Notes under the pieces: model-generated | Databases searched by the model: none | The model's input: only the letters and a program-made list of their open reading frames with translations | Told to the model about the DNA's origin: nothing | In this document: positions 21,922 to 43,774 of the stretch, in pieces | How the letters are laid out: every line of letters begins with the position of its first letter | Position numbering within the stretch: the stretch's first letter is position 1 | Position numbers and translations under genes: made by a program | Source: Actinomycetota bacterium | GTDB lineage: Bacteria; Actinomycetota; Actinomycetes; Mycobacteriales; Micromonosporaceae | Direction: 5' to 3' | Assembly (NCBI GenBank): GCA_005885555.1 | Contig: VAWN01000025.1 | Coordinates: forward strand, 1-64,000 | DNA length: 64,000 nucleotides

Positions 21922-24900
21922 TTGCGGCACGGAAATCGTTGGCAGAGGAACCGGTGGCCACCGCCGGTTCATCGAGACGGGGGAACGACGATCAACCGCG
22001 AAACTTATCCCGGGTACGGCGACGACACGGTCCCACCGTTGCCGGACGTGACCGTGGCACAGCTCTTCGAACAGCAGGCCCGGCAGACGCCGGACGCGGT
22101 CGCCGTGGAATGGGCGGGCGGCACCATCACCTACGCGCGGCTGCACGCGCGGACCGACCGCCTCGCCCGGCGACTGACCCGGCACGGCGTGCAGCCCGGT
22201 GACCGCGTCGCAGTCCTCATGCACCACTCCCCGGAGCTGGTGGTCACGTTGCTCGCGGTGGCGAAGTGCGGTGCCGCGTACGTCCCGCTGGACCACCGGT
22301 ACCCCGCGTCGCGGATGCGGTCGATCCTGGGCGGGGCCGGTTGCGTGCTGCTCGCGGTCGACAACGCAAGCCGGGACCACGAGGTGGTGTCGGGCCAGCG
22401 GACGCTGCTCGTCGTGCCCGACGGCACCGGGGGCGAGGACATTCCCGAGGGTACCGCCGACGGCGCGACGTTCGTGAACCCGCGGCCCGATCCGCGCGCG
22501 GTGCTGTACATCATGCACACCTCCGGTTCCACGGGGGAACCGAAGGGCGTCATGGTGACCCACCGCAACGTCCTCGCGCTCGCCCTGGACCGGATCTGGC
22601 GGCGCGGCGCGCACACCCGGGTACTCCTGCACTCGCCATACGCCTTCGACGCCTCGACGTACGAGCTGTGGGTACCGCTGCTGTCCGGTGGGCGGGTCGT
22701 CATCGCCGACGAGGAGGTCAACTCCCTGCTCCTGCGCAGGCTGGCCGGCGCCGGTCGGATCACCGCGCTGTGGTTGACCGCGGGGCTGTTCGCCGCGTTG
22801 GCCGAGGGCGACCCGGGCTGCCTGGCCGGGGCGCGCGAGGTGTGGACCGGTGGTGACGTGGTCTCCCCGCAGGCCGTGGCCCGGGTGGCGGCGGCGTGCC
22901 CGGCAATCGTCGTCTTCAACGGGTACGGCCCGACGGAGACGACGACGTTCGCCACGCGCTATCAGATCCACCCTGGACCGTCCATTGAGGACGATGTGCC
23001 CATCGGCGCGGCGATGGACCACACCCGCCTGTACGTCCTGGACGCGGATGGCCGGCCCGTGCCACCGGGTACCGTGGGGCAGCTTCACGTGGGCGGTGAG
23101 CACGTCGCCCGGGGCTACGTGGGCCGACCCGACCTGACCCGGGAGCGCTTTCTTCCCGACCCGTTCGGGCCGCCTGGCAGCCGCATGTACGCCACCGGTG
23201 ACCTGGTGCGGTGGGACGGCGAGGGTCGGCTGCGGTACCTGGGCCGGGTCGACGACCAGGTGAAGATCCGGGGGTTCCGGATCGAACCCGGGGAGATCGA
23301 GTCGCTACTCTCCCGGCATCCGCAGGTGTCCCGGGCCGCCGTGGTGGCCCAGCGACTCGACGCCGGTGGCGGGCGCATCACCGCGTACGTCGTACCGGCC
23401 GACCCCGGTGCACCGCCCGAGCCGGAGGCGCTGCGCGGCCAGCTCGCCGGCAGCCTGCCGGAGTACATGGTCCCCGCCGAGGTCGTGCTGGTACCCGCAA
23501 TCCCGCTGACCGCCAACGGGAAGGTGGACCGCCGGCGCCTGTCCGACCCGGGCCGGACCGGCGCAGCCGGCGGAACCGCCGGAGCCGTCGTGGCCGGCGG
23601 AACCCGCGCAGCCGGCGTGGCCGGCGGAACCCGCGGAGCCGGCCAGCAGCACGACCCGAGTCCCGGCGTACCCACGCTCGTCGAGCAGTGGGTGCGGCGC
23701 CGACCCGACGCGTGTGCCGTGCACGATCCGGTCGCCGGCGACTCCGTGACGTACGCGCAGCTGTGGCGGCGGTCGGGGGAGCTGGCCGGCGCGCTGGCCG
23801 CCATGGGCGTCGGCCGGGGGCACACGGTGGCGGTCGACCTCGACCGGTCCGTGGACCTGGTGGTCGCCTTCCTCGGCATCGCGCGGGCCGGCGCCGCCTA
23901 CCTTCCGTTGGACACGTACGCGCCGCCCGAGCGCGTCGCCGGGATCCTCGCCGAGTCCGGGGCGGGGGCGGCGGTGGTCCGCGACGACACCGCCGGCGGC
24001 CGGGTGCCGTCCTCGGTACGCACGCTGACGGCGTGGGCGGGCGGCACCGGGTACCCCGGTGACATCCGGGCACCGGAGTGCGACGCGGCCGGTGAGGACC
24101 CGCTCTACGTCACGTACACGTCGGGTTCGACCGGCCGTCCGAAGGGTGTGGTGGTACCGCACCGCGCGGTGGTCCGGCTGGTGACCGGCGCGCGGTACTG
24201 TCCGGTCGACGCCGGTGACCGGGTGGCCAACACCTGCAACCCGGCCTTCGACGTGACCACGTGCGAGATCTGGTCCACGCTGACCGCCGGCGGCACCGTC
24301 GTACCCTTCCCGTCGGTCACCGACGTGAGCCTGGGCGAGTGGATCGCGCTCGTCCGGGACCAGCGGATAACCACCATGTTCCTGACCACCTCGCTGTTCC
24401 ACACGGTGGCGTGGGAGGAACCGGACGCCTTCTCGACCCTGCGCAACCTCGTGGTCGGGGGTGAGCAGCTCGACCTGTCCGCCACCCGCCGGGTACTGGC
24501 CGCCGGGCCGCCGGGGCGCCTGGTCAACGGGTACGGGCCCACCGAGGCCACCGCCTTCGCGACGTACTTCGAGTGCACCCGGGACAGCCTGGCCGGCCTC
24601 GACCGGGTGCCGATCGGCTTCGCGCTGCAGCAGACCTCGCTGCACGTCCTCGCGGATGACCTGTCGCCGGTGCCGGCCGGCACGCCGGGTGAACTGTGCA
24701 TCGGCGGCCCCGGTGTGGCGCTCGGTTACCTGCACCGGCCGGAGTTGACCGCCGAGCGGTTCGTCACCGAACCCGGTACCGGCGAGCTGGTGTACCGGAC
24801 CGGCGACGTGGTACGCGAGCTGCCCGGCGGCGCCCTGGAGATGCTCGGCCGCCGGGACCGGCAGGTGAAGCTGCGCGGGTTCCGGATCGAGCTGGACGAG

Positions 24901-27144
24901 ATCGAACAGGCGGTCGTGGCGACCGGGCTCGCCGATGCGGCGTTCGTGGCGAAGGTCGGCGACGGGACGGCCGCGCAGCTGTTCGCGGCGGTACTGCCCG
25001 ATGCCCGGTCCGCGGTACCCGCGGCGGAACTGCCGGCGACGCTGCCGGCACGGCTGGGCGAGCGCCTGCCCGGGTACATGGTGCCATCGCACTGGCTGGT
25101 GCTGGACCAGCTGCCGATCGGCCCGACCGGCAAGGCGGACCGCGGCCGGATCGAGACCCTGCTCACCGAGGAGTTCGGCGGCCGCGGTGGCCCGGCCGAC
25201 GGCTCGCGCGGACTGGAGACAGCCACCGAACGGCAGCTCGCGCAGCTGTGGTCGGAACTGCTTGAGGTACCCGTGACGTCCGGCGACGCGTCGTTCTGGG
25301 AGCTCGGCGGGCATTCGTTGCGCGGCATCACGCTCGTCGCGCGGATCCGCGAACGCCTCGGCGTGGAGCTGCGCCTGCGCGACCTGTTCGACCGTCCATG
25401 CCTGTCCGACCTGGCGGCCTTCCTCGACGGGACCGACACCCTCGACAGGACCGACACCTCGGGGCCGTCCGGGACGGCGACCGCCCCGGTCGAGGTGGCG
25501 GCGACGGACTTCCAGCAGCGGATCTGGGTCGCGCTGAAGCTCGAACCCGAACCGGCCCTCTACAACGTGCCGTTCGCCTGGCGGGTGGCCGGTGAGCTGG
25601 ATGCGGCGCGGCTCGCCGTGGCACTGGCCCGGGTCGTCGCGCGCCACGAGGCGCTGCGGACCACCTTCGCCGATCGGCGCGGAGAGCTGCGCCAGGTCGT
25701 CGGGGCACCGTGGCGGCCGGTCGTCCATCGGCAAAGCTGTGCCGGTACCGGGGAACTCACGGCGTGCCTGCGCGCCGAGGCCGACCGGCCGTTCGACCTC
25801 GCGACGGGGCCGTTGCTGCGGGCCGGGCTCATCGACACCCCGGACGGGCAGATCCTCACGCTGACCGTCCACCACATCGTCTTCGACCTCTCGTCCCTGG
25901 CGATCCTGCTGGACGAGCTGCGCCGCTACTACGCGGACGACACGGTGGCCGACACGGCGGCCGAACCGGCGCCGAAGCAGTACCGCGACGTCGTCGAGGC
26001 CGCCGGGTCGGCCGACCCCGCCGCCCTGGACCGGTGGGTCAAGCGCCTGCACGGTGCGCCGGGCCGGTTGCCGCTGGACCGTCCACAGTGGAGCGAACCG
26101 CCCGGTGTGGTACCCCTGGACCTGCCCGACGATCTGCTCACGCTGATGCGCCCGGTGCAGGCCCGGTTCGGGATGTCCTGGTTCATGGTTGCCGCGGCGG
26201 CCCTTGCCGGTGCGCTGCACCGGTGGACCGGAAGCGACGACCTGACCTTCGGGTTCCCGACCGACATCCGTTCCGCGAACGGGTTGGACGGGGTCCTCGG
26301 ACCCTGCCTCAACATGGTCGTGGTGCGGTCACGATCGGCGGCCGGCACGCGGTTGTCCGAGCTGCTGGCCGCGACCCGGGACGACGTGCTGCAGGCGATC
26401 GAGGACCAGGACGTCCCCTTCGGCTCGGTCGTGGACGCGCTCAACCCGCCCCGCTCCGCCGGGTCCACGCCGTACCTCGACGTCGTCCTCGCGCCGCAGG
26501 TACACCCGGCGACCCCACCGGAGGTCGGCGGTTGTCACCTGACGCCGCTGACCACCACGGGTACCGTCGGCGCGGTCGGCAAGTTCGCGGTGACCGTCGG
26601 CCTGACGGTTGCCGGTGACCGGCTGACCGGCTCCCTGCTGTACCGCGGTGACCGGCTCTCCGCGGCCGCGGCGGCCGACCTGGCGCGCGCCTACGTCGAG
26701 GTGCTCGGCGCCGCTGTCCGCGACCCGGACGGCGTGCTGGAGACGCCCGGTCCGGCCGGCCGGTACCGGGACGGCGCCGTCGACACCGGTACCGCGGCGC
26801 CCACCGTCCACAGTGGACAGACGCCGCGCGGCGAGCTGGAGCGTCGCGTCGGCGCCATCTGGTCCGCGCTGCTCGGCATGGAAGCCATCGGGGCCGACGA
26901 CAACTTCTTCGACGCGGGCGGCAACTCGCTGAAGCTGGTGACCCTGCACGCCGAACTGTGCCGCGAGTTCGGCGTCGAGGTGCCGATCCAACGCCTCTTC
27001 GAGAACTGCACGGTGCGGACGATGGCCAGGTTCCTGGGGGAGTCCGGTGGGCAGCCGTCCCGGCCGGTGGCGCACAGCCTGGACGCCGCCGACCGGGCCA
27101 CCGCCCGGCGCAACCGGCTGCAGCACCAGGCGGGGCGGAGGTGA
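21922..27144 (+). CDS. NRPS with tandem adenylation domains (A-A-T-C-T)
   Basis: About 1740 residues. A1 (about 35-545) has HTSGSTGEPKGVMV, NGYGPTETTTF and LTANGKVDRRRL; my reading of its pocket is D-A-Y-W-W-G-G-T-F-K, a valine-like code. A Gly/Ala linker leads directly to A2 (about 575-1075; TYTSGSTGRPKGVVV, NGYGPTEATAF, PTGKADRGR), pocket D-V-C-F-V-G-G-A-F-K, unfamiliar. T1 (GGHSL, Ser near 1131), a condensation domain with HHIVFDL near 1317 (the usual Gly after Asp is Leu) and T2 (GGNSL, near 1668) follow. No carrier lies between A1 and A2. The start is uncertain: TTG at 21922 is the only standard upstream codon, but a GGGGGAA sits correctly before an in-frame ATC at 21991. First gene of the NRPS/PKS operon; overlaps or abuts the PKS gene. 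Confidence 0.88.
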   Translation: MRHGNRWQRNRWPPPVHRDGGTTINRETYPGYGDDTVPPLPDVTVAQLFEQQARQTPDAVAVEWAGGTITYARLHARTDRLARRLTRHGVQPGDRVAVLMHHSPELVVTLLAVAKCGAAYVPLDHRYPASRMRSILGGAGCVLLAVDNASRDHEVVSGQRTLLVVPDGTGGEDIPEGTADGATFVNPRPDPRAVLYIMHTSGSTGEPKGVMVTHRNVLALALDRIWRRGAHTRVLLHSPYAFDASTYELWVPLLSGGRVVIADEEVNSLLLRRLAGAGRITALWLTAGLFAALAEGDPGCLAGAREVWTGGDVVSPQAVARVAAACPAIVVFNGYGPTETTTFATRYQIHPGPSIEDDVPIGAAMDHTRLYVLDADGRPVPPGTVGQLHVGGEHVARGYVGRPDLTRERFLPDPFGPPGSRMYATGDLVRWDGEGRLRYLGRVDDQVKIRGFRIEPGEIESLLSRHPQVSRAAVVAQRLDAGGGRITAYVVPADPGAPPEPEALRGQLAGSLPEYMVPAEVVLVPAIPLTANGKVDRRRLSDPGRTGAAGGTAGAVVAGGTRAAGVAGGTRGAGQQHDPSPGVPTLVEQWVRRRPDACAVHDPVAGDSVTYAQLWRRSGELAGALAAMGVGRGHTVAVDLDRSVDLVVAFLGIARAGAAYLPLDTYAPPERVAGILAESGAGAAVVRDDTAGGRVPSSVRTLTAWAGGTGYPGDIRAPECDAAGEDPLYVTYTSGSTGRPKGVVVPHRAVVRLVTGARYCPVDAGDRVANTCNPAFDVTTCEIWSTLTAGGTVVPFPSVTDVSLGEWIALVRDQRITTMFLTTSLFHTVAWEEPDAFSTLRNLVVGGEQLDLSATRRVLAAGPPGRLVNGYGPTEATAFATYFECTRDSLAGLDRVPIGFALQQTSLHVLADDLSPVPAGTPGELCIGGPGVALGYLHRPELTAERFVTEPGTGELVYRTGDVVRELPGGALEMLGRRDRQVKLRGFRIELDEIEQAVVATGLADAAFVAKVGDGTAAQLFAAVLPDARSAVPAAELPATLPARLGERLPGYMVPSHWLVLDQLPIGPTGKADRGRIETLLTEEFGGRGGPADGSRGLETATERQLAQLWSELLEVPVTSGDASFWELGGHSLRGITLVARIRERLGVELRLRDLFDRPCLSDLAAFLDGTDTLDRTDTSGPSGTATAPVEVAATDFQQRIWVALKLEPEPALYNVPFAWRVAGELDAARLAVALARVVARHEALRTTFADRRGELRQVVGAPWRPVVHRQSCAGTGELTACLRAEADRPFDLATGPLLRAGLIDTPDGQILTLTVHHIVFDLSSLAILLDELRRYYADDTVADTAAEPAPKQYRDVVEAAGSADPAALDRWVKRLHGAPGRLPLDRPQWSEPPGVVPLDLPDDLLTLMRPVQARFGMSWFMVAAAALAGALHRWTGSDDLTFGFPTDIRSANGLDGVLGPCLNMVVVRSRSAAGTRLSELLAATRDDVLQAIEDQDVPFGSVVDALNPPRSAGSTPYLDVVLAPQVHPATPPEVGGCHLTPLTTTGTVGAVGKFAVTVGLTVAGDRLTGSLLYRGDRLSAAAAADLARAYVEVLGAAVRDPDGVLETPGPAGRYRDGAVDTGTAAPTVHSGQTPRGELERRVGAIWSALLGMEAIGADDNFFDAGGNSLKLVTLHAELCREFGVEVPIQRLFENCTVRTMARFLGESGGQPSRPVAHSLDAADRATARRNRLQHQAGRR
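23563..23643 (+). repeat. 27-bp tandem repeat encoding the A1-A2 linker
   Basis: Two nearly identical 27-base units (23591-23617 and 23618-23643, core TGGCCGGCGGAACCCGC then GCAGCCGG or GGAGCCGG) follow a third, diverged copy that starts near 23563. They encode a Gly/Ala/Thr-rich flexible linker (roughly AGGTRAAGV repeated) between the two adenylation domains. Copy-number change here would alter linker length in frame. Confidence 0.8.
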
Positions 27145-27146
27145 CG

Positions 27147-30100
27147 GTGGAAGCCGAGGGTGCGGTCGCGGTCATCGGCATGGCGTGCCGGTACCCCGGG
27201 GCGAGCGGCGTGGACGGCTTCTGGGCGGCGCTGCGGGACGGCACGGAGGGGATCACCCACTTCGACCGCGACGACCTCGTGGCCGGCGGGGCGGATCCGG
27301 AGCTGGTACGGCGGGTGGACTACGTCCCGGCCCGGGGCGTCCTGGCCGGGTCCCGCAACTTCGACTGGTCGTTCTTCGGGTACAGCCGCGCCGAGGCGGC
27401 CACCATCGATCCGCAGCACCGGGTGTTCCTCGAATGCGCCGCCGAGGCGATCGACGACGCCGGCATCGACCCGGCCCGGTTCCCCGGGTGGATCGGTGTG
27501 TACGCCGGCGCGGAAGGTACCAGTGCCGGCGGCGGCCCGGACGGCGTCGATCCGCTGGCCCGGATCATCGGGCAGCGCCAGGACTTCCTGACCACCCGGG
27601 TGGCGTACAAGCTCGGGCTGCGCGGACCCGCGCTCACCGTGCAGACCGCGTGCTCGACCTCGCTGACCGCGGTGCACATGGCGGTCCAGGGCCTGCAGGC
27701 GTACGAGTGCGACGCCGCGTTGGCCGGCGGTGTCTCGGTGGCGCCACCGGACGAGTGCGGCTACCTGTACCAGGAGGGCGGGATCCTGTCACCGGACGGG
27801 CACTGCCGGCCGTTCGACGAGAACGCGGCGGGCACGGTACCGGGCGACGGGGTCGGGATCGTCGTGCTGAAGCGGCTGGCCGACGCGCTGCGCGACGGGG
27901 ACCGCATCGCCGCGGTGATCCGCGGCTCGGCGATCAACAACGACGGTGCCGACAAGATCGGCTTCACCGCGCCGTCGATATCCGGCCAGCGCGACGCGAT
28001 CCTGCTCGCCCAGCGGGTGGCCGGCGTCGATCCGGCCGACATCCGGTACGTCGAGGCGCACGGGACGGGTACCCGCATCGGCGACCCCGTCGAGGTACAG
28101 GCGTTGACGGACGCCTTCCACACCGCCACCGACGGCACCGGCTGGTGCTGGATCGGCGCGGTCAAGAGCAACATCGGTCACACCGGCTCCGCCGCGGGCG
28201 TGGCCGGTCTGATCAAGACGGTGCTCATGCTGGAACACGGGGAACTGGTCCCCACGCTCCACTACCGCGCCCCGAACCCGCTGCTGAAGATCGAGACCAC
28301 ACCGTTCCGGGTGTGCGCGCAACGGCGACCGTGGCCCGCCGACGGCGCCCGGCTGGCCGCCATCAGCTCGTTCGGCGTCGGCGGTACCAACGCCCATGTC
28401 ATCGTCGCGGCAGCACCGCGGCGGACCGGGCCGCAACCGCGGCCGGGAGCCCGGATCCTGGCGCTGTCCAGCCCGTCGGTGGACGCGCTGGCCCGGCTGC
28501 GCCGCAGCCTCGCCGAGCACCTCGGCTCGCGGCCGCGCGCCTCGCTGGTGGAGATGTCGTGGACCCTCGCCGGCCGGCGCCGCTTCAGCCACCGCCAGGC
28601 GCTCGTGGTGGACAGCCGGGACGAGGCGTACCGGCTGCTGCGCGCCACCGCGGACCCGCCGCAGCGGGGTTCCGGTGACCGGATCGCCTTTCTCTTTCCC
28701 GGACAGGGGACGCTCGGCCACGCCGCCGGAGCGGCCGCGTACCGGCTGCTCCCCGGATTTGCCGGGTACTTCGCCGAGGTCGCGGACGCGGTGCGCGACG
28801 GGTACGGCATCGACCTGTCGCCGGTGGTCACCGACGGCGCGGCGCCGGCCGGCTGGTTCACCGACACCGTGCACCAGCAACTCGGGGTACTCGCCCTCGG
28901 CTACGCCCTCGGCCGGCGGCTCCTCGACTGGGGCGTCACCCCGGCGTTGCTGCTCGGCAACAGCATCGGCGAGTACACGGCCGCGACCCTCGCCGGACTG
29001 TGGACGCCGTCGGACGCCGCCGCCGTCGTGTACGAACGGGCCTCCGCGATGCGCGCCACCGAACCAGGCCGGATGGCCGCGGTCAGCGCGTCGGTCGACG
29101 AGGTGCGTGCGCGGATCGGATCGGACGGGCCCGTCGCCGTCGCCGTGGCCGGACCGGAACGTACCGTCATCTCCGGTGCCTGGGCCGCCATGGACAGACT
29201 CCTGGCCGGCGGTGCCCTGACCGGGTTCGAGACCCGGCTGATCGACACCGACCGGGCCTTCCACTCGGTGACGATGGAGCCGGCGACCCGGGCGCTGCGC
29301 GACGCGGTGGCGTCGACACCGCACCGCACACCGTCGCTGCCCATGGTGTCCACGGTCACCGGCGAACTGGCCGACGCGCAGTCCCTGGGTTCGCCCGACT
29401 ACTGGGCGCGGCAGCTTCGCCGGACGGTCCGCCTCGACGACGGGATCGCGACCGTCCTCGCGGCCGGCTGCGACATCCTCATCGAACTGGGGGCCGGTAC
29501 CTCGATGACCGGAGCGGCCCGCCGGCACCGGAACTGGACCGCGGACCGGGTGGCCCTCCCGCTGCTCGGCCGGCCGCCGGAGGAGCGCAACCTGCTGCGG
29601 GCGCTCGGCACGCTGTGGGAGCACGGCGCCGACATCGACCTGGCCGACCTGCTCGCCGCGGAACGGCCGGTGCGCTGCGCCCTGCCCGCACAGCCCCTGG
29701 ACTCACGCGACCCGGAAGCCGACGGCGCCGGGCGGGCCAGCGCCGGGCGGTTCGGCGCCGGGGCGCCCACGACCAACCGGCAGCGGCACCCGGCGGCCGG
29801 TACCCGGGACGGGCTCCGGACCGTGCTGGAACGCTTGTGGTGCGCGGCTCTCGGCGTACCGTCCGTGACCGAAACCGACGACTTCTACGCGCTCGGCGGG
29901 GAGTCGCTCATGGCGGTCACCCTGGTGAACCGGGTACGGGAACAGACCGCCTCGGCCGTCACCGTCGCGGAGTTCACCACAGCACCGACATTCGGCCGGC
30001 TGGTCGAGCTGGTCCGGCGGCACCGGTCCGCGGCAGGCGGCCCGGTGCCGGGCATCGTGCCGCTGCGCGAGGGCGGCGCGGGCCGGCCGCTGTTCCTGGC

Positions 30101-30785
30101 CGCCGACGCGACCGGTACCACGGCCGGTTACCGGACCCTCGCCGGGCACCTCGACGCCGGCCGCCCGGTCTTCGGGCTGGAGCCGGCCGGCCGCGCGGCC
30201 CGGCATCCGGTGTTCCCCCGGATCGAGGAGATCGCCGCCGGACACGTCGACGCCGCGCTCGTCGTCCAGGGTTGCGGACCGTACGCGCTCGGTGGCTGGT
30301 CCTTCGGCGCCGTGGTGGCGCACGAAATGGCGCGCCAGCTCATCGACCGTGGCGCGGCGGTCGAGACCCTCGTCTTCGTGGACGGGTACGCCCCCGCCCG
30401 CAAAGGGCTACCGATCGCCACCGCGCCCGGGTTCCTCGCCGGCACCCTCCGGCTGCAGGCCGAGGCGATCCTCGGCATCGGCACCATCGGCGGCCGGCTG
30501 CGCCGGGCGCCGGAGCTGCGCCGCCGGTTCGTGGCCAGCCTCGGCGCCCTGCTGCGGTACCGGCCCGCGCCGGTACCCTGCCCCGCCGTGGTGTTCCGGG
30601 CCGGGGTGGACCGGCGCGGCGCCGAGAACCTGCGCCGCGACCTGGCCACCTTGTACTCCGACGTGCAGGTCCACCCGATGTCCGGAGACCACTGGTCGAT
30701 CCTTGCCGAACCGCACGTCCGGGACCTCGCCGAGAAGCTGCGGTCGGCCCTGCCCGAGCCGGCCAACTCGACAGGAGGTCGCTGA
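27147..30785 (+). CDS. Type I PKS module with terminal thioesterase (KS-AT-ACP-TE)
   Basis: About 1212 residues. KS (about 5-425): active Cys in VQTACSTSL, His in EAHGTGT and NIGHTGSAAG. AT (about 510-820): FPGQGTLG, nucleophile in GNSIGEY (the common His before Ser is Asn) and RAFHS at the specificity loop, which fits malonyl-CoA. ACP (about 890-960): DDFYALGGESLMAV with the pantetheine Ser. TE (from about 975): GGWSFGAVVAHEM with the catalytic Ser and GDHWSIL with the His. No KR, DH or ER. It would extend the peptidyl chain by two carbons and release a beta-keto or cyclised product. GTG at 27147 has GGAGG five bases upstream; GTG at 27141 overlaps that site. It follows the NRPS without a gap. 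Confidence 0.9.
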   Translation: MEAEGAVAVIGMACRYPGASGVDGFWAALRDGTEGITHFDRDDLVAGGADPELVRRVDYVPARGVLAGSRNFDWSFFGYSRAEAATIDPQHRVFLECAAEAIDDAGIDPARFPGWIGVYAGAEGTSAGGGPDGVDPLARIIGQRQDFLTTRVAYKLGLRGPALTVQTACSTSLTAVHMAVQGLQAYECDAALAGGVSVAPPDECGYLYQEGGILSPDGHCRPFDENAAGTVPGDGVGIVVLKRLADALRDGDRIAAVIRGSAINNDGADKIGFTAPSISGQRDAILLAQRVAGVDPADIRYVEAHGTGTRIGDPVEVQALTDAFHTATDGTGWCWIGAVKSNIGHTGSAAGVAGLIKTVLMLEHGELVPTLHYRAPNPLLKIETTPFRVCAQRRPWPADGARLAAISSFGVGGTNAHVIVAAAPRRTGPQPRPGARILALSSPSVDALARLRRSLAEHLGSRPRASLVEMSWTLAGRRRFSHRQALVVDSRDEAYRLLRATADPPQRGSGDRIAFLFPGQGTLGHAAGAAAYRLLPGFAGYFAEVADAVRDGYGIDLSPVVTDGAAPAGWFTDTVHQQLGVLALGYALGRRLLDWGVTPALLLGNSIGEYTAATLAGLWTPSDAAAVVYERASAMRATEPGRMAAVSASVDEVRARIGSDGPVAVAVAGPERTVISGAWAAMDRLLAGGALTGFETRLIDTDRAFHSVTMEPATRALRDAVASTPHRTPSLPMVSTVTGELADAQSLGSPDYWARQLRRTVRLDDGIATVLAAGCDILIELGAGTSMTGAARRHRNWTADRVALPLLGRPPEERNLLRALGTLWEHGADIDLADLLAAERPVRCALPAQPLDSRDPEADGAGRASAGRFGAGAPTTNRQRHPAAGTRDGLRTVLERLWCAALGVPSVTETDDFYALGGESLMAVTLVNRVREQTASAVTVAEFTTAPTFGRLVELVRRHRSAAGGPVPGIVPLREGGAGRPLFLAADATGTTAGYRTLAGHLDAGRPVFGLEPAGRAARHPVFPRIEEIAAGHVDAALVVQGCGPYALGGWSFGAVVAHEMARQLIDRGAAVETLVFVDGYAPARKGLPIATAPGFLAGTLRLQAEAILGIGTIGGRLRRAPELRRRFVASLGALLRYRPAPVPCPAVVFRAGVDRRGAENLRRDLATLYSDVQVHPMSGDHWSILAEPHVRDLAEKLRSALPEPANSTGGR

Positions 30786-30789
30786 GCAC

Positions 30790-32205
30790 GTGAATCCGTC
30801 CTCGACGGTGGGGTACGTGCCGCGACACGCGACCATCCCCCCGCCCACCGCCCCGCCCACCGACCAGGTTCCGCCACCCGACCCCGCCCCGCGGTACGAC
30901 GCCGCCCCGCGGTACCACCGCCCGCGGCCGCCGGCCGATCCGCGGAGCACCGCCCGCAACCTCCACAGTGGAATCCTCGGGGCGGACGTCCCCGTCCATG
31001 CGCTGATCCGCAACCACGACTTCCAGGCGCTGTGGATCAGCAGGTTTTTCGCGAGCATCGGCAAGGAGACGGCCGACGTCGCCTACCCTCTGCTGATCCT
31101 GGCCGTCACCGGCTCGGCCACCTACGCCGGTACGGTCGGCGCGGTTCAGCTCGGCGTGGTCGGGTTCATCGCGATCACCGGCGGCGCCCTCGCCGACCGG
31201 ATCGACCGCCGCCGGTTGCTCATCGCCTGCGACACCGCCCGGGTGGTCCTGCTCGGCCTGTTCAGCGTGCTGATCGCGCTCGACCTGGCGAGCATCCCGT
31301 TGGTCTTCGTCATCGTGGTCGGCTCGGCCGCATGCGTGGGGATCTCGGAACCGGCGGCGTTGGCCGGGATCAAACAGATCGTGCAGCGCTCCCACCTCAC
31401 CCGCGCCACCGCCCAGAACCAGGTCCGTCCGCTCGGCGCCACGGTCGTCGGTACCCCGATCGGCAGTTCGCTGTTCGCGGTCGGCCGGGCGATCCCGTTC
31501 GTCGCCACCGCCCTGGCCTTCACCTGCTCGGCCACGCTGCTGTGGTTCATCCGCAAGCCGATGCAGGCGGCGCTGACCGGCAACGAGGACCGGCGCCACG
31601 TGGTGGCGGGCTTCCGCTACGTCGTCCGCCAGCCGGTGCTGCTCGTCTGGATGGTCTGGGTCATGGGTTCCAACATGGCCTTCAACCACACGGGAGCGTT
31701 CCTCGCGCTGATCGCCACCGCGAAGCAGCGCGGAGCGCCGGAGTCCACCGTCGGGCTCATGCTGGCCATCGCCGGCGGCGGCGGCCTGGTCGGTGCGATG
31801 CTGGCCACCACCGCACTGGCCCGGCTGCGGGCCTCCACGCTGTTCCTGATGGCGGCGTGGTCCGGTCCGGTGGCCGCCCTCGCGCTGGCCGTGGTACCCG
31901 GGGTCCTGCCGCTGGGATTCATCCTCGCCAGCGTCTTCCTGCGCGGCCCGATCGTCAACGCGCTGTTCTTCGCCTACGTCGCCGTACTGGTGCCGGACCG
32001 GTTGCAGGGGCGCGTGATGGGGGCCGTCATGTTCCTGTCCTACGTCGCCCAGCCGATCGGGATCTTCGCGATCGGATCGATCTTCGACACCGGCGGCCCG
32101 ATCTGGGTCTTCCTCATGATGTGCGCCGTCTCGACGCTGGCGGCGTTGCCGACGCTCACCCGCCGCATCCGCCGGCTGCCCGCACCCGAGGAGATGGTCG
32201 CATGA
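30790..32205 (+). CDS. MFS transporter with proline-rich N-terminal extension
   Basis: 471 residues. Residues 1-75 are a Pro-rich cytoplasmic extension (VNPSSTVGYVPRHATIPPPT, then repeats of APRY and PRPP). The remaining part has about 11-12 hydrophobic helices with the MFS loop ALADRIDRRRLLIACD between helices 2 and 3 and HLTRATAQNQVRPLG after helix 5. It resembles enterobactin exporter (EntS)-like MFS proteins. GTG at 30790 is preceded by AGGAGG. Located inside the NRPS/PKS operon, it probably exports the product and gives self-protection. It ends ATGA-coupled to the P450 gene. Confidence 0.88.
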   Translation: MNPSSTVGYVPRHATIPPPTAPPTDQVPPPDPAPRYDAAPRYHRPRPPADPRSTARNLHSGILGADVPVHALIRNHDFQALWISRFFASIGKETADVAYPLLILAVTGSATYAGTVGAVQLGVVGFIAITGGALADRIDRRRLLIACDTARVVLLGLFSVLIALDLASIPLVFVIVVGSAACVGISEPAALAGIKQIVQRSHLTRATAQNQVRPLGATVVGTPIGSSLFAVGRAIPFVATALAFTCSATLLWFIRKPMQAALTGNEDRRHVVAGFRYVVRQPVLLVWMVWVMGSNMAFNHTGAFLALIATAKQRGAPESTVGLMLAIAGGGGLVGAMLATTALARLRASTLFLMAAWSGPVAALALAVVPGVLPLGFILASVFLRGPIVNALFFAYVAVLVPDRLQGRVMGAVMFLSYVAQPIGIFAIGSIFDTGGPIWVFLMMCAVSTLAALPTLTRRIRRLPAPEEMVA

Positions 32206-33461
32206 CCGTACCAATGACATCAGAGCCCGCAGAGCCTGTGGCGACCGAGTTCGTCACCTGTCCCGGGGCCGATCCGCACCCGGAGAACGCGCGGTTGCGC
32301 GCGCACGGCCCGGTACACCCCATCGACTTTCCCCGGGGGGCGACCGCATACGTGGTCGTCGACCACGACACCGCCACCCGCGCCTTCACCGATCCGCGGC
32401 TGTCGAAGCGTCTGGCCAACGCCCCGGACTGGTTCCGCGACCAGACGCTGGCGAACAGCTCGGTCCTCGCGAGCAACATGCTGCTCGCCGATCCCCCCGA
32501 GCACACCCGGCTGAGAAAGCTGGTCAGCAGGGCCTTCCTGCCCCGGCGGATGGCGCTGCTGCGCCCGCGCATCCAGGAGCTGACCGACGATCTCATCGAC
32601 GCCTTCCCGGAGTGCGGCGAGCTGGACCTGTTGCCCGCGTTCGCGTTTCCGTTGCCGCTCATGGTGATCTGCGAGTTTCTCGGGATCCCGTACGAGGATC
32701 GGCCGCTGTTCCTGCGCTGGGGCCGGGTACTCAGCCAGGACCCCAGCCAGGAGGGGGCGCAGGCACGCGAGCGCCGGCTGGTCAACGACGAGGTCGTCGA
32801 CTACTTCACGAAGGTCCTGGCGGTTCGCCGCGCCGATGCGCCGGGGAACGTCCGTGACGACCTCATCGGCGACCTGGTACGGGCCGCCGACACCGACGGG
32901 ATGTTCAGTGACGAGGAGCTCATCTCCACGATCATCTTCCTCATCATCGCCGGCCACAAAACCACCGCGAACCTCATCGGCAACGGCATGGAGGCCCTGC
33001 TGCGCCACCCTGACCAGCTGGCCCGGTTGCGGGCGGAACCAGCCCTGGTGCCGTCCGCCGTCGAGGAGTTCCTGCGCTACGAGGGGTCGGTGGACCGCGG
33101 TACCCTGCGGGTCGCGGCCGAGGACATGCACCTGGGTGGGGTCGACATTCCCAAGGGCGCCTTCGTCCACCTGTCGATCTCGGCCGCGGACCGCGATCCG
33201 GCCGCATTCGAGGACCCGGATCGCTTCGACATCACCCGTTCGCCGAACCGGCACCTGGCCTTCGGGCACGGCGCGCACTTCTGCGCCGGCGCCCCGCTCG
33301 CCCGGCTGGAAGGGCAGGTGGCGTTCGCCACGTTGCTGCGTCGGCTGCCGGTGCTCGATCTCGCGGTACCGGCCCAGGAGCTGACGTGGGTGGCGGACAG
33401 CTCGATCAGCCGCGGCCTGGAGAGGCTACCCATCCGGATCGCCGGGCGCCGGCCGCGGTGA
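32202..33461 (+). CDS. Cytochrome P450
   Basis: 419 residues, soluble bacterial class I P450. Heme-binding loop FGHGAHFCAGAPLAR with the Cys ligand, I-helix IIAGHKTTANLI (oxygen-activating Thr pair, with AGHKT where many have AGHET), K-helix ExxR in VEEFLRYEG, and the early PPEHTRLRKLVSRAF block of the CYP105/CYP107 type. No ferredoxin or reductase is encoded nearby. It is translationally coupled to the exporter. Likely a hydroxylase that tailors the NRPS/PKS product or an amino acid on a carrier protein. Confidence 0.93.
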   Translation: MTVPMTSEPAEPVATEFVTCPGADPHPENARLRAHGPVHPIDFPRGATAYVVVDHDTATRAFTDPRLSKRLANAPDWFRDQTLANSSVLASNMLLADPPEHTRLRKLVSRAFLPRRMALLRPRIQELTDDLIDAFPECGELDLLPAFAFPLPLMVICEFLGIPYEDRPLFLRWGRVLSQDPSQEGAQARERRLVNDEVVDYFTKVLAVRRADAPGNVRDDLIGDLVRAADTDGMFSDEELISTIIFLIIAGHKTTANLIGNGMEALLRHPDQLARLRAEPALVPSAVEEFLRYEGSVDRGTLRVAAEDMHLGGVDIPKGAFVHLSISAADRDPAAFEDPDRFDITRSPNRHLAFGHGAHFCAGAPLARLEGQVAFATLLRRLPVLDLAVPAQELTWVADSSISRGLERLPIRIAGRRPR

Positions 33462-33542: not shown

Positions 33543-34244
33543 ATGGCGGATCTTCCCGTAGCACTGATCACCGGCGGAGCGAGCGGCATCGGAGCCGCCA
33601 CGGCCCGGCGGCTGCTCGCGCTCGGGCACGCGGTCACCGTGACCGGTCGTGACCCCGGCCGCCTGGAGCGTTTCGTCGAGGAGGCCGACGCGCCGGACCG
33701 GCTGCTGGCGGTGGCCGGCGACGCCGCTGAGTACGCGGCCGTCGTGTCGGCGGTGGAGTCGACCGTGGCGCGCTTCGGCCGGCTGGACGTCGCGGTCGCC
33801 AACGCGGGGTACGCGACCCACGACGCGCTCGACACCGGCGACCCGGTCGGGTGGCGCGACATGGTGCTCACCAACGTGCTCGGGCCGGCGCTGCTCATCC
33901 GGGCGTCCCTGGCCGCCCTGAAGGAGACACAGGGCCGGATCGTGCTGATCGGCAGCGTTGCCGGGATGGTGTACACCCCGGGCAACATCTACGGCGCGAC
34001 CAAGTGGGCGGTGACCGGCCTCGCCGAGAACGCCCGTCGCATGGTGACCGCCGACGGGGTCGGCGTCACCCTGGTTGCTCCCGGCCGGGTCGAGACCAAC
34101 TTCTGGGGCCCGGTCGGCGGGGCGCCCGAAGGCAACAACCTGACCGCCGAGCAGATCGCCGACTCCGTGGTGTGGGTGATCGGCCAGCCGCGCGGTGTGG
34201 ACGTCAACACCGTCGTGGTCCGGCCCACCGGTCAGGCCGTGTGA
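33543..34244 (+). CDS. Short-chain dehydrogenase/reductase
   Basis: 233 residues, classical SDR. Cofactor motif TGGASGIGAAT near residue 10, VANAGYATHDAL (NAG motif), catalytic Ser in IGSVAGMVYTPGN, and YGATKWAV with Tyr and Lys of YxxxK. GRDP at the end of the second strand favours NADPH. Located between the P450 and the second NRPS and in the same direction, 80 bases after the P450 stop with GTGGAGG before the ATG. It likely reduces a keto group of the product or oxidises a hydroxyl introduced by the P450. Confidence 0.88.
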   Translation: MADLPVALITGGASGIGAATARRLLALGHAVTVTGRDPGRLERFVEEADAPDRLLAVAGDAAEYAAVVSAVESTVARFGRLDVAVANAGYATHDALDTGDPVGWRDMVLTNVLGPALLIRASLAALKETQGRIVLIGSVAGMVYTPGNIYGATKWAVTGLAENARRMVTADGVGVTLVAPGRVETNFWGPVGGAPEGNNLTAEQIADSVVWVIGQPRGVDVNTVVVRPTGQAV

Positions 34245-34293
34245 CCGAGCAACAGTCCGTTCCGGTACCGACGAGATCCCAGGAGTACACCCG

Positions 34294-37200
34294 ATGACCC
34301 ACCCCGATCCGGCCGCGCTCGAACGCAGTCTGTCGACGCTGTGGTGCGAGATACTCAGCGTCGCGGCCGTCGACCCGGCCGCGGACTTCACCGAGCTCGG
34401 CGGCAACTCGCTGCACGCGGCCCGCATCGTCGCCCGGGTCCGCACCGGCTACGGCCTCGACCTGTCGCTTCGGGACCTGTTCGTGGCCGGGACGGTGCGC
34501 GGGTTGGCGCGGCTCGTCGCCGGTCGGCACGTGGGTACCCCGGCCGGGCTTGCGCCGCTGCACCGGCAGGCCGGGGCGTCGCCGGTACCGTCGCTCAGCC
34601 AGCAACGGCTGTGGTTCCTCGACCGGCTGGACACCGGCGGGGTGGCCTACAACGTGCCGCTGGCGACCTGGGTACGCGGGCCGGTCGAGGTGGCGGCGCT
34701 GCGCGGTGCGTTCGAGGACCTCGTCCGCCGGCACGAGCAGCTGCGCACGTCGTTCCATCTCGTGGAGGGCCGGCTCACCGCCCGCGTGGCCGACGCGTTG
34801 CCCCCGCTGCAGCTGGTGGACCTGCGCGACCACCCGGACCCGGAGGCTGTGGCGCGGCAGCGGTCCGAACGGCTGGCGGCCGAGCACCTCGACCTGGGCA
34901 CGGCCCCGCTGCTGCGCTGCCTGGTGTTCCGTACCGGCGAGGACCGCCACCTGGTCACCGTCGTCCTGCACCACATGGTGTCGGACGGGTTGACCGTCGA
35001 CATCCTCGACCGCGAACTGGCCGAGTTCTACCAGGCCCGCCTCGCCGGCGGCCGCGCGCCGCTGCCGCAGCTGCGCCTGGAGTACCGCGACTTCGCGCGC
35101 TGGCAGCATGACCTGGCCGGATCGGCGGTGCTGGCCGACCTGCTCGGCCACTGGCGCGGTCGCCTGGCCGGCGTGCCGACCGAGCTGGAGCTGCCGGCCG
35201 ACCACCCCCGCCCGGCCCTGCGCAGCCACCGCGGCCGGCGCATCACGACCCGTACCCCGGACGGTGTGCTCCCGGCGGTCCGCGACCTGGCCGTCGCGAC
35301 GCGCACCACGCCGTACGCGGTGTGCCTCGCCGCGTTCGCCGTCCTGCTGCGCCGGCTCACCGGCCGCCGGGACCTGCTCGTCGCCTCGCCGACAGCCGGC
35401 CGGCCGGACCCGGCGCTGGAGGATGTCGTCGGGTTCTTCACCAACACCGTGCCGATCCGGCTGCGGCCGGGCGACGGTACCTTCCGGGAGCTGGTCGGCA
35501 GCGGCCACGCGACCACCCTCGACGCGCTGGAACACCAGTACGTCCCGTTCGAGCGGCTGGTGGCGGAGCTGGCGCCGGCCGGTGACCTGTCCCGGGCGCC
35601 GCTGGCCCAGGTCGCGCTCGCCTACCAGGGACCGCGGCGCGCCCACGCCCGGCTGGAAGGTACCGAGGTCGAACCGGTACCACTGGACAACGGCACCGCC
35701 AAGTTCGACCTGACGATCGAGGTACACGAGGTCGGTACGGCACTGGAGGTGACCGCCGAGTGCAGCACCGACCTGTTCGCGGCCGAGCGCGCCCGGCACA
35801 TGCTGGACGGCTACCTGGACCTGCTGGCCACGGCCGTCGAGGCGCCGGACACGCCGCTGGCCGACCTCGCCGAAGGCGCGCCGGGGCCCCGGCCGCCGGC
35901 GCGGGAAGGGGACCGGCGGCCGGCGGGGGAGTGGGACGGGCGGTGCCTGCACGAGATCTTCGCGGCCACGGCGGCGCGGCACCCGGACGCAGTCGCGGTC
36001 ACCGACGGCACCCGCCGCCTGACCTACGCCGAGCTGGACCGCACGGCGAACCGCCTGGCACACCGGCTGCGCGCGCGGGGGGCGCAGCCGGAGCGGCTGG
36101 TCGGACTCTGCGCGGAGCGTACCGTCGACCTGGTTGTCGGGGTGCTGGCCATCCTCAAGGCGGGCGCGGGATACCTGCCGCTGGATCCCCGCCATCCGGC
36201 CGCCCGGCTGAAGCTGACCCTCGACGACGCGGACTGCCGGTTGCTGCTCGGCGACGGCGAGCTGTGCGCGCCACTGGCCGGGCCGGGCCGGACACTCGTC
36301 GAGCTGGGCGCACCGCTGCACGATGAGCCGGCTGACCCGCCCGAGACGGGGGTACGGCCGGACCACGCGGCCTACGTCATCTACACGTCGGGATCGACCG
36401 GCAGGTCCAAGGGCGTCGTGGTGACCCACGCGAACGCCACCCGGCTGTTCACCGCCACCGAGAACGACTTCGGCTTCGGCCCGCAGGACGTGTGGACCCT
36501 GTTCCACTCGATCGCGTTCGACTTCTCGGTGTGGGAGCTGTGGGGACCGCTGCTGTACGGCGGGCGTCTCGTCGTGGTCCCGTACCTGACGAGCCGGGAC
36601 CCGGTGGCGTTCCTCGATCTTCTGCGCGCCGAGCGGGTGACCGTCCTCAACCAGACGCCCACCGCCTTCCGGCAGCTGGCCGGTGCCGCCGAGGACGCGG
36701 GCTTCCCCGGGACCGGCCTGCGGTACGTCGTCTTCGGCGGGGAAGCGCTGGATCCGGCCATGCTGCGGGGCTGGGTCGGCGGGTACGGTACCGCCCGGCC
36801 CCGGCTGGTCAACATGTACGGGATCACCGAGACGACGGTGCACGTCACGATCCGCCCGATCCAGGTGTCCGACCTGGCCGGCTCCATCAGTCCCATCGGC
36901 CGGCCGATCGCCGACCTGCGGGTACACGTCCTGGACGGGGAGCTGCGGGAGGTGCCGCCGGGGGTCGAGGGCGAGATGTACGTCGGCGGTCCCGGGGTGG
37001 CGCGCGGCTACCTCAACCGGCCCGAGCTGACCGCCGAGCGGTTCGTCCGGGACCCGTTCGGCGCCCCGGGCGACCGGCTGTACCGTTCCGGCGACCTCGC
37101 CGTACGGACCCCGGACGGCGAGCTGGAGTACCGCGGCCGGGCGGACGACCAGGTGAAGCTGAACGGCTTCCGGATCGAGCTCGGCGAGATCGAGCGCGCG

Positions 37201-39087
37201 CTGCTCGACCAGCCCGGTGTGCGGGCGGCCGCCTGCATGCTGCGCGAGGACACCCCGGGCCTGCCGCGCATCGTGGGGTACCTGGTCCCGTCGTCCGGGG
37301 CGGTGCTGCGCCCGGCCGACGTCCGGACCGCGCTGCTGGAGCACCTGCCCGCGCACATGGTACCGGCGGCTCTCGTCGAGGTACCGGCGCTGCCGCTGAC
37401 CACCAACGGCAAGCTGGACCGGGCCCGCCTACCGGCACCACCCACGGCCGTCGCCGCACCCGAGCCGTCGCGGGTCGGCCCGCGTACCGCGACCGAGCGC
37501 GCCCTCGCCGCCGTGTGGGCGCAGGTGCTGGGCATCGACGAGCCGGGCGTGCACGACAACTTCTTCGCGCTCGGCGGTGACTCCATCGTGGCCATCCGGC
37601 TGGGGGTGGCCGCCAGGGCCGCCGGCCTGCCGGTGACCATCGAACGGATCTTCCTCTGCCCGACCATCGCCGAGCTGGCGGAGGCGTGCGACGCGGCGCC
37701 GTCCACCGCACCGGCCCCCGCCGAGCTTGCGGCGGCGGACCTGGCCGCGCTGGCGCCCGGCGTCGTCGACGCGTACCCGACCGCGGCGATGCAGCTGGCC
37801 ATCCTGTTCGAGTGTGAGCTGGCCGATGCCCCGGGTCTCTACCACGACCTCATCAGCGCGCAGGTGACGGGCGAATTCGACCGGCCGGCGCTGGAGCGGT
37901 CATTGGCCACGATGAGCGCCCGCCACGAGATCCTGCGGACCTCCTTCAACCTGGGCAGGTTCAGCGAGCCGATGCAGCTCGTGCACCAAGAGGCGCACAT
38001 TCCCCTTGCCGTGGAGGACGCCTCGTCCGGCCCGGCCGACGACGCGGCGCACGAGGCCCGGCTCCGCGAGTGGTGGCTGGGCGAGACGGCCGAGCAGTTC
38101 GACCTCGACCGGCCGCCGCTGGTGCGCTGCCATGTGCTGCGCCGCACGGCGCGGTCGTACCAGCTCTCGCTGCTCGTACACCACAGCGTCCTGGACGGCT
38201 GGAGTCTCGCCCGCCTGATGACCGAACTGCTGCAGGAGTACGACGCCCAACTCGGCGGGCGGAGTGCTCCGCTGGCACCGCTGGTGTCCGGCCGCTACCG
38301 GGACTTCGTCGCCGCGGAGCAGGCCGCCGTCGCCGATCCCGCCGCGGCGCGGTTCTGGCACGGTACCGTCGGCGGGCTTCCCGCGGCGTCGCTGCCCGTC
38401 CTGCCGGGCCGCGGCGGTGACGGGTTCGCGTGGCACACGGTACTGCCGGAGGCGCTCGACGGCGACCTGCGCCGGGTGGCCGCCGAGCTCGGCTTCCCGC
38501 TCAAGAGCGTGTTCCTCGCCGCGCACCTGTGGGCGCTGCGGCAACTCGTCGACGGCCCCGACGTGGCCTGCGGGGTACAGGTCAACGGCCGGCTTGAGCA
38601 CGAGGGCTCGGACCTGCTGCTCGGCCTGTTCCTCAACCTCGTACCGGTTGCCGTCACCGTGGACCGGGGTACCTGGGCCGAGCTGATCGGCGCCGCGTTC
38701 ACGGCCGAGCGCGAACTCCAGCCCTACCGCCGCTACCCGCTGGCCAGGATGCAACAGCTGGCCGGCCGGGACCGCAGCCTGTTCGAGGCGGCGTTCAACT
38801 ACACCGACTTCCACACGTTCGACGAGCTCGGCACGCTGGCGCGGATCCGGACGCGGGACTGGCGGTTCGCCGACCGGCACAGCTTCCCGCTCATGGTCGA
38901 GGTGGTCCGTTCGCCAGGTACCGGGGAGCGGGCGATCGTGGTGAGCGCGGGCGTCGACAGTCCGCTGGCCGGTACCGGCGTCCGCTTGGGCGAGCTGTTC
39001 TTCGAGGCCCTTCAGCAGCTCGTCACCGACCCACGCGCGGCGTACCCGACGGGCGACCCGGTGTCCACCCGTACGGGGCCGCGGTGA
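34294..39087 (+). CDS. NRPS with domain order T-C-A-T-C, threonine-type A domain
   Basis: 1597 residues. A lone N-terminal carrier (GGNSL, Ser near 38) opens the protein. C1 has SLSQQRLWFLDRL and HHMVSDG (about 227). The A domain (about 555-1050) has YTSGSTGRSKGVVVTH; its pocket reads D-F-W-N-V-G-M-V-H-K, which matches the threonine code. T2 (GGDSI, about 1095) is followed by a terminal C2 with HHSVLDGW (about 1297). There is no A domain for the first carrier and no TE or carrier after C2. C2 may join the chain to an amine or to a carrier on another protein. The ATG at 34294 is used because the T domain starts at once; the stop overlaps the thioesterase remnant. Confidence 0.92.
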   Translation: MTHPDPAALERSLSTLWCEILSVAAVDPAADFTELGGNSLHAARIVARVRTGYGLDLSLRDLFVAGTVRGLARLVAGRHVGTPAGLAPLHRQAGASPVPSLSQQRLWFLDRLDTGGVAYNVPLATWVRGPVEVAALRGAFEDLVRRHEQLRTSFHLVEGRLTARVADALPPLQLVDLRDHPDPEAVARQRSERLAAEHLDLGTAPLLRCLVFRTGEDRHLVTVVLHHMVSDGLTVDILDRELAEFYQARLAGGRAPLPQLRLEYRDFARWQHDLAGSAVLADLLGHWRGRLAGVPTELELPADHPRPALRSHRGRRITTRTPDGVLPAVRDLAVATRTTPYAVCLAAFAVLLRRLTGRRDLLVASPTAGRPDPALEDVVGFFTNTVPIRLRPGDGTFRELVGSGHATTLDALEHQYVPFERLVAELAPAGDLSRAPLAQVALAYQGPRRAHARLEGTEVEPVPLDNGTAKFDLTIEVHEVGTALEVTAECSTDLFAAERARHMLDGYLDLLATAVEAPDTPLADLAEGAPGPRPPAREGDRRPAGEWDGRCLHEIFAATAARHPDAVAVTDGTRRLTYAELDRTANRLAHRLRARGAQPERLVGLCAERTVDLVVGVLAILKAGAGYLPLDPRHPAARLKLTLDDADCRLLLGDGELCAPLAGPGRTLVELGAPLHDEPADPPETGVRPDHAAYVIYTSGSTGRSKGVVVTHANATRLFTATENDFGFGPQDVWTLFHSIAFDFSVWELWGPLLYGGRLVVVPYLTSRDPVAFLDLLRAERVTVLNQTPTAFRQLAGAAEDAGFPGTGLRYVVFGGEALDPAMLRGWVGGYGTARPRLVNMYGITETTVHVTIRPIQVSDLAGSISPIGRPIADLRVHVLDGELREVPPGVEGEMYVGGPGVARGYLNRPELTAERFVRDPFGAPGDRLYRSGDLAVRTPDGELEYRGRADDQVKLNGFRIELGEIERALLDQPGVRAAACMLREDTPGLPRIVGYLVPSSGAVLRPADVRTALLEHLPAHMVPAALVEVPALPLTTNGKLDRARLPAPPTAVAAPEPSRVGPRTATERALAAVWAQVLGIDEPGVHDNFFALGGDSIVAIRLGVAARAAGLPVTIERIFLCPTIAELAEACDAAPSTAPAPAELAAADLAALAPGVVDAYPTAAMQLAILFECELADAPGLYHDLISAQVTGEFDRPALERSLATMSARHEILRTSFNLGRFSEPMQLVHQEAHIPLAVEDASSGPADDAAHEARLREWWLGETAEQFDLDRPPLVRCHVLRRTARSYQLSLLVHHSVLDGWSLARLMTELLQEYDAQLGGRSAPLAPLVSGRYRDFVAAEQAAVADPAAARFWHGTVGGLPAASLPVLPGRGGDGFAWHTVLPEALDGDLRRVAAELGFPLKSVFLAAHLWALRQLVDGPDVACGVQVNGRLEHEGSDLLLGLFLNLVPVAVTVDRGTWAELIGAAFTAERELQPYRRYPLARMQQLAGRDRSLFEAAFNYTDFHTFDELGTLARIRTRDWRFADRHSFPLMVEVVRSPGTGERAIVVSAGVDSPLAGTGVRLGELFFEALQQLVTDPRAAYPTGDPVSTRTGPR

Positions 39088-43186: not shown

Positions 43187-43774
43187 CAGCGACTCCGACG
43201 GTGTCGAGGGGTCTTGTTGGAAGAGGTGGTGGGCGCGCCCGCCTCACTGGTGTTCGCTGCGACGCGCCCCCATCACCGCCGTTCTAGGCGTAGGTGTCCA
43301 GCCTTCCGGTCGCCACCGATGTCACGTCCTGCATCTGGAGCGCCTGGACCGCTACCGACGCCTGCTGTGTCTGCCTGGCCGTCTGAGCCGCCACCGCAAG
43401 GCGGGTCAGGCTCTCCACGAGAGACGGGCCGCCCGATACGGAACCAACGTTCACAACCACCTCCGTGTCGAGAACCTTGCTTGGTCCATGCCGATCGGCA
43501 AGCGGGCGTGCTCGCGTAGGGAATCCGACTCCTGCACGGTGTGCTCTGGATCACGTGGGTGGCCAGGCGCTCGATGCCGCGGCCCGGTGCCGCCGGGGTT
43601 GCCCCTGGCGGCACCGTTATCCGGGCGTGTCATCCCCCGTTCGCAATGACACGCCCGTGGACCTCTCGGTGGCGCCACAAGCGCCGGTCGCCTTTGCGTC
43701 GGGTCGAGCATTCCGTACCGGCGTGGGAGGTACGTTGGAGATCCGTTAACGCCGCCCATTGTGGAGGAACAGCG
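43187..43774. other. Intergenic region upstream of the SARP gene, with a 12-bp inverted repeat
   Basis: About 590 bases without a supported gene. A perfect inverted repeat, CGGGCGTGTCAT (43622-43633) and ATGACACGCCCG (43646-43657), with a 12-base loop lies 118 bases before the SARP start. Arms of this length suggest an operator or a transcription-attenuating hairpin. The rest of the stretch shows no recognisable feature. Confidence 0.5.

Follow-up and report, generated by a model that had tools for sequence, protein, structure and literature searches.

Two adjacent, intact adenylation domains in an actinobacterial NRPS: a putative insertion ahead of an ancestral carrier and a first domain that may load a carrier further downstream

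Which carrier does an adenylation (A) domain load when another A domain stands between it and the next carrier (T) domain? The question is raised by a nonribosomal peptide synthetase, NRPS1, encoded in a stretch of 64,000 nucleotides (contig VAWN01000025.1, assembly GCA_005885555.1, Micromonosporaceae; G+C 71.5%) that was analyzed as a whole and is hereafter called the window. NRPS1 violates the canonical rule that each A domain is followed by its own T domain, as A1 is followed directly by A2:

21922..27144, + strand: NRPS1, A1-A2-T1-C-T2, 1740 aa (Pfam and BLAST domain parse)
22042..23547, + strand: A1, code DAYWWGGTFK, every checked motif kept (Pfam, domain parse, motif reading)
23548..23661, + strand: A1-A2 linker, Gly/Ala-rich, with no carrier remnant (repeat analysis, T-domain HMM)
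23662..25161, + strand: A2, code DVCFVGGAFK, putatively inserted and belonging to the clade of stand-alone A-T proteins (tree, searches, motif reading)
25210..25428, + strand: T1, clustering with the T1 directly behind A1 in Actinophytocola (T-domain tree, HMM)
25495..26739, + strand: C domain of NRPS1, motif VHHIVFDL (Pfam, motif reading)
26818..27039, + strand: T2, with no A of its own here and in three homologous clusters (parse, tree, HMM)

Pfam recovers two AMP-binding, two PP-binding and one Condensation match in NRPS1, and the BLAST parse resolves these (in aa) as A(41-542), A(574-1079), T(1095-1170), C(1188-1610) and T(1632-1707); the domain library of this parse contains the same NRPS1 and homolog domains, and an independent Pfam run on the homologs agrees with it. 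A preliminary description of the locus had the tandem end at 25300, a position that falls inside T1 (about 25210-25428). It had further held that both A domains keep their core motifs and the catalytic Lys, which is borne out by motif reading: A3 is HTSGSTGEPKG in A1 and YTSGSTGRPKG in A2, the A5 motif NGYGPTE, the A7 Asp and A8 are kept in both, and A10 with the catalytic Lys reads TANGKVDR in A1 and GPTGKADR in A2. Pfam AMP-binding_C gives a separate stretch for A1 only, and the equivalent tandem in G239, a genome of another genus, likewise gives just one; the C-terminal part of A2 is atypical, though conserved among A2 relatives, all of which except G101 show the A10 form GxTGKxDR. With specificity codes positioned by PheA numbering, we take DAYWWGGTFK of A1, which is identical in the window and G239, to be aliphatic-looking and Val-like; many codes of the A2 relatives (e.g. 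DAFFLGATFK and DAFFVGGTFK) also look aliphatic. The earlier statement that T2 of NRPS1 and the first T of a second synthetase, NRPS2, have no A in their respective modules likewise agrees with both Pfam and the parse.

The joint between A1 and A2 had been described as a mere Gly/Ala linker, and so it proves by the parse and by its repeat make-up: a 27-bp tandem repeat of 3.4 copies (23553-23643) encodes most of it (aa about 543-580). The preliminary description had named a carrier-like remnant in this linker as counterevidence. A T-domain HMM trained on 17 sequences, T1 and T2 among them, scores these two at 98 and 103 bits and finds no match above noise in the six frames of 23301-23900. A remnant is ruled out by this null result, by the tandem-repeat make-up and by the joint of G239, which amounts to only about 6-8 residues. 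Nor is the tandem an assembly slip of one genome, because in G239 a single frame encodes two AMP-binding domains, one Condensation domain and two carriers.

Homologous clusters were recovered by several routes. A search of 61 relatives yielded the A1 and T-C-T pieces in G057, while the T-C-T alignment, run against the genome collection, picked out 51 stretches, of which one was confirmed as a relative, in Actinophytocola xinjiangensis (L035). Among 300 family genomes, G239 was matched at 2.7e-245 besides the window itself; at a loose threshold of 1e-60 some match was present in 155 of them, the next best being G173 at 2e-115. At 1e-110, matches were confined to G239 among 67 genomes of its genus, to four of 397 genomes of the order (the window, G057 and the more distant G173 and G330), and to three of 394 of the class (the window and the more distant G759 and G938); these samples overlap, and 3 to 18 candidates were scored per genome. 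In the more distant G173, G759 and G330 the T preceding the KS has an A in front of it. G173 and G759 (L058, L067) also show an extra C-like stretch of ~230-240 residues between the C and the A that precedes the KS-bound T.

The window, G239, G057 and Actinophytocola have PKS, MFS, P450 and SDR proteins in common (55-74% identity), and their NRPS1 proteins are 53-63% identical over matching pieces. The layout of NRPS1 differs between them: C-A1-T1-C-T2 in Actinophytocola, A1-C*-T1-C-T2 in G057 (L021 10326-15026), where C* is a C-like domain with HRIAGDP replacing HHxxxDG, and A1-A2-T1-C-T2 in the window and G239. By Pfam, Actinophytocola and G057 each have one AMP-binding and two Condensation domains and G239 has two and one, respectively, with two carriers in all three proteins; the first C of Actinophytocola and C* of G057 each match the Condensation model independently. 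T2 has no A of its own in all four NRPS1 proteins. Separate A-T proteins accompany the clusters of G057 and G239. The Actinophytocola locus encodes a Thioesterase domain fused to an A-T unit (L035 15448-17874, Pfam), with the Thr-like code DFWCIGMVHK.

The remainder of the window cluster lies downstream of NRPS1:

27141..30785, + strand: PKS, KS-AT-T-TE (Pfam; homologs compared)
30772..32205, + strand: MFS exporter, in all four clusters (Pfam, homolog comparison)
32205..33461, + strand: cytochrome P450, start uncertain, 65-69% identity to the other three clusters
33543..34244, + strand: short-chain dehydrogenase/reductase, 65-74% identity to the other three clusters
34195..39087, + strand: NRPS2, T-C-A-T-C, first T with no A and last C with no T behind it (Pfam, parse)
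34297..34524, + strand: first T of NRPS2, with no A of its own (parse)
35908..37437, + strand: A domain of NRPS2, code DFWNVGMVHK (motif reading)

The NRPS2 code DFWNVGMVHK presumably specifies Thr. The terminal C of NRPS2 (37762-39039 of the window), behind which no T follows, may supply the C that NRPS1 does not have before T1. G239 encodes a free T-C protein, and an NRPS of G003 also has a C at its end. The AT active-site motif, usually GHSxGE, is GNSxGE in all four homologous PKSs. The cluster is flanked by two regulator-like large proteins: one (19454-21712, - strand) has ~34% identity to a protein encoded next to the G239 cluster, and the other (43541-46573, + strand), on the opposite flank, contains BTAD, NB-ARC and TPR by Pfam. 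A search of the window with an MbtH-like motif pattern found no instance, and four MbtH matches occur elsewhere in the same genome. When the genome was searched with its own NRPS1, no further A domain was listed within the window; the other two A matches on the contig are 28-29% identical AMP-binding enzymes outside it.

The ancestry of the domains was examined with trees of 26 A and 21 T domains. In the former, the A1s of the four clusters form one group (support 100/100) and 13 A2-type domains a separate one (100/99), in which the window A2 is sister to that of G239 (98/91), followed by G003 (100/99); A2 is 59-60% identical to the A domains of stand-alone A-T proteins. In the latter, from which G178, G272 and G230 are absent as the motif search did not find their T, the T1s group together (98/96), as do the T2s (97/98), while the six T domains taken from the nine stand-alone A2-type A-T proteins split off (99/99). 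The window T1 is 66, 58 and 55% identical to those of G239, G057 and Actinophytocola, respectively, versus 30 and 28% to the T domains of the two stand-alone A-T proteins compared. The arrival of A2 and T1 as a joint A-T cassette is ruled out by the T-domain tree. Since T1 clusters with other T1s and A2 with stand-alone A-T proteins, these trees suggest that A2 is a newcomer, an A domain alone having been inserted, with no T of its own, between A1 and its ancestral carrier T1. The preliminary description had missed this division of roles, i.e. that A2 rather than A1 would be the newcomer and T1 the original carrier of A1. By parsimony over the four clusters, we infer C-A1-T1-C-T2, with a T2 already devoid of an A, as the ancestral layout. 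The A1|T1 joint would then have been breached twice, by A2 in the window and G239 and by a C-like domain in G057.

At a threshold of 1e-150, an A2-type domain is present in 13 of the 300 family genomes, two of these being the tandems. The other 11 loci comprise nine stand-alone A-T proteins and two cases, G194 and G101, in which the A2-type A ends a longer open frame and no T was found. The next gene encodes C-T-C with no A in G178, G272, G230 and G002, C-A-T-C in G320, G220, G290 and G234 (the last read in overlapping frames), C-A-T-C-T-C in G003 and just a C piece in G101; in G194 a C-T-C lies beside the A2-type A. The PKSs of G320 and G272 are of the form KS-T followed by a reductase-like domain. 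These neighborhoods are suggestive: A2-type domains are frequently found next to carriers lacking an A. Stand-alone A-T proteins adjoin such a C-T-C at L090, L092, L093 and L022, and in the first three of these loci the C-T-C is followed by a T in another frame and a KS. The G002 locus (L022 12296-15642), from a single-contig genome, has a C-T-C-T protein spread over two frames, by frameshift or sequencing error. The idea that the A2-type A is the sole loader of these carriers loses weight, as an A-only protein of another type, with the code DPFF(I/T)IVVAK, lies near G272, G230 and G002, the three loci for which wider flanks were read.

Tandems of active-looking A domains had been called rare, and within a limited scope this holds. 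Of 394 class genomes searched with a model of the A1-A2 joint, the top five candidates per genome being scored, 157 matched at 1e-25; among the matches listed, which do not include G239, the window alone spans the whole joint. The longest other match listed, in G889 (1-209 of 307), was considered as a second tandem and rejected, being an ordinary A-T. In a literature search with most subscription papers outside its coverage, AulA and PyrG were the only bacterial tandem-A NRPSs among the matches listed; beyond bacteria, a Fusarium review describes the gramillin NRPS as having a pair of neighboring A domains.

As to loading, the dN/dS between the window and G239 (Nei-Gojobori) is 0.42 for A1, 0.33 for A2, 0.26 for T1, 0.44 for C and 0.46 for T2, values valid just for comparing domains, dS being probably saturated at this G+C. 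By this measure A1 is under the same constraint as these last two and decays no faster than either. The reading that we tentatively favor, as a serious possibility that falls short of being probable, is that A2 loads T1 and that A1 has been kept because it loads T2 of NRPS1. The ancestor would have been an ordinary C-A1-T1-C-T2 protein with T2 already lacking an A; the insertion between A1 and T1 would have occurred in the line shared by the window and G239, and the incoming piece would have been the A domain of a stand-alone A-T protein, with no T. A2 would then load the adjoining T1, while A1, now separated from T1, would be retained as the loader of T2 in the same polypeptide, reaching it past A2-T1-C or acting between two chains. 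The two A domains would thus serve two carriers with different residues, from which the chain would pass to the KS-AT-T-TE protein. Two links lead to this proposal: an A1 serving T1 only should have decayed, and it has not, and T2 must have needed some loader before A2 came, as by parsimony it was without an A earlier. A shade more doubtful is the wider formulation that a synthetase with one A for two carriers acquired a second through the insertion of a foreign A2, both A domains being fully active, A1 loading T2 past A2-T1-C and the A1|T1 joint acting as a natural site of domain insertion. The preliminary proposal that A1 loads a carrier lacking its own A hence stands in part: the intact motifs, shared code and dN/dS of 0.42 speak for a need for A1 beyond T1, whereas the target cannot be assigned by sequence, T2 of NRPS1 being favored as likelier than the free first T of NRPS2. 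Throughout, we infer the activity, the substrates and the A-to-carrier assignment.

Other assignments have to be weighed against this one, and with four clusters and two tandems the pairing of A1 with T1 and A2 with T2, or loading of the A-less NRPS2 carrier by A2, is almost as good a fit. That A1 still loads the ancestral T1 past A2, with the new A2 loading T2, we regard as unlikely, though the strongest of the competitors: A1-T1 is the pair seen in Actinophytocola, and A2-type domains often occur beside A-less carriers (a C-T-C is encoded by the next gene at four of the 11 loci and adjoins the A2-type A at one more). G057 provides a further counterpoint to our preferred reading, in that C* parts A1 from T1 and A1 is the sole A of that protein; there A1 may reach T1 past the intervening domain, and in both G057 and G239 the separate A-T proteins could load T2 in trans. 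Against the pairing of A1 with T1, A2 directly precedes T1, the usual position for a loading A, and T2 was by parsimony A-less before A2 came and so already loaded by something. Slightly less likely still is a scheme in which A1 loads both T1 and T2 while A2 acts in trans on the first T of NRPS2. Both tandem-A clusters do hold another protein starting with an A-less T (T-C-A-T-C in NRPS2 of the window, T-C in G239), the A2 relatives are mostly free A-T proteins, and the ratio of A domains to NRPS carriers is 3 to 4 in the window and G239 and 2 to 3 in G057, where the contig may cut the cluster short. However, the two A-less T domains are no close relatives, with 29% identity, that of G239 being nearer to the second T of NRPS2 (41%), and a position fused beside T1 is an odd one for a trans loader.

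More doubtful again is the possibility that T2 and the first T of NRPS2 receive their residues from a stand-alone A or A-T encoded elsewhere in the genome, leaving A1 and A2 to compete for T1 and give product variants. It accords with the A-T proteins accompanying the homologous clusters of G057 and G239, but the search of the genome with NRPS1 listed no further A in the window, and the two other matches on the contig are AMP-binding enzymes of just 28-29% identity. Least probable of all is that A1 is catalytically dead or skipped, with A2 alone working, on T1, and T2 loaded from elsewhere. A precedent is at hand in the degenerate and dispensable first A domain of AulA (PMC5238615); that domain, however, has lost the acyl-activating motif and an invariant Asp, while the window A1 retains the A7 Asp, the Lys, A3, A5 and A8, shows the same code in two genera and is constrained to the same degree as C and T2.

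The observation is more than an oddity of one genome, and its interpretation as loading by A1 is plausible. It amounts to a natural experiment on the way in which an A domain reaches its carrier: within one family, A1, T1, C and T2 recur with A1 beside T1, with a C-like domain between them or with a second A between them. If A1 does load T2 at a distance, then proximity in cis would not be required, and an assembly line could survive the insertion of an entire A domain in front of a carrier. This would matter for NRPS engineering as well as for product prediction, where one A is assumed for each neighboring T.

Among known systems, a detoxin/rimosamide-like cluster was considered, as these are likewise small NRPS-PKS hybrids with a terminal TE, and ruled out on domain order: miramide MirF is A-T-C-A-T-KS and MirE KR-T-TE, with no AT, and the PipC homologs also have none (PMC9503745, PMC12828459), whereas the window PKS is KS-AT-T-TE, with its own AT and no KR. 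Tandem A domains as such are already known. In AulA of auriculamide biosynthesis, one A domain follows directly on another, no carrier intervening (PMC5238615), and that paper names PyrG (pyridomycin) as the sole precedent and lists PyrG-A2 for an alpha-keto acid. NRPS1 shares this arrangement with both and has T-C-T behind its A-A. AulA is an A-A-KR-PCP protein for an alpha-keto acid, in which the A1 motifs are lost and A1 can be deleted (PMC5238615); in NRPS1, there is no KR match, A2 being directly followed by T1, and the first A is intact in its motifs, A7 Asp and Lys. Unlike the alpha-keto acid codes, which have no leading Asp, both DAYWWGGTFK and DVCFVGGAFK start with Asp. For the proposed loading at a distance, the parallel lies in the fungal siderophore NRPSs: A1 of SidD and A3 of SidC are reported to load their own T and T domains of later modules with no working A (PMC10192304). 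The A-T-C-T organization with no working A in the later module recurs in the NRPS1 layout of Actinophytocola, which would require much the same kind of loading, and T2 is A-less in four of four homologs; SidD, as described there, holds a truncated A in its module 2, whereas the T2 module of NRPS1 has none. In SidD and SidC one A serves several T domains and loading is demonstrated, whereas in NRPS1 loading at a distance is a proposal and a second, unrelated A stands between A1 and T1.
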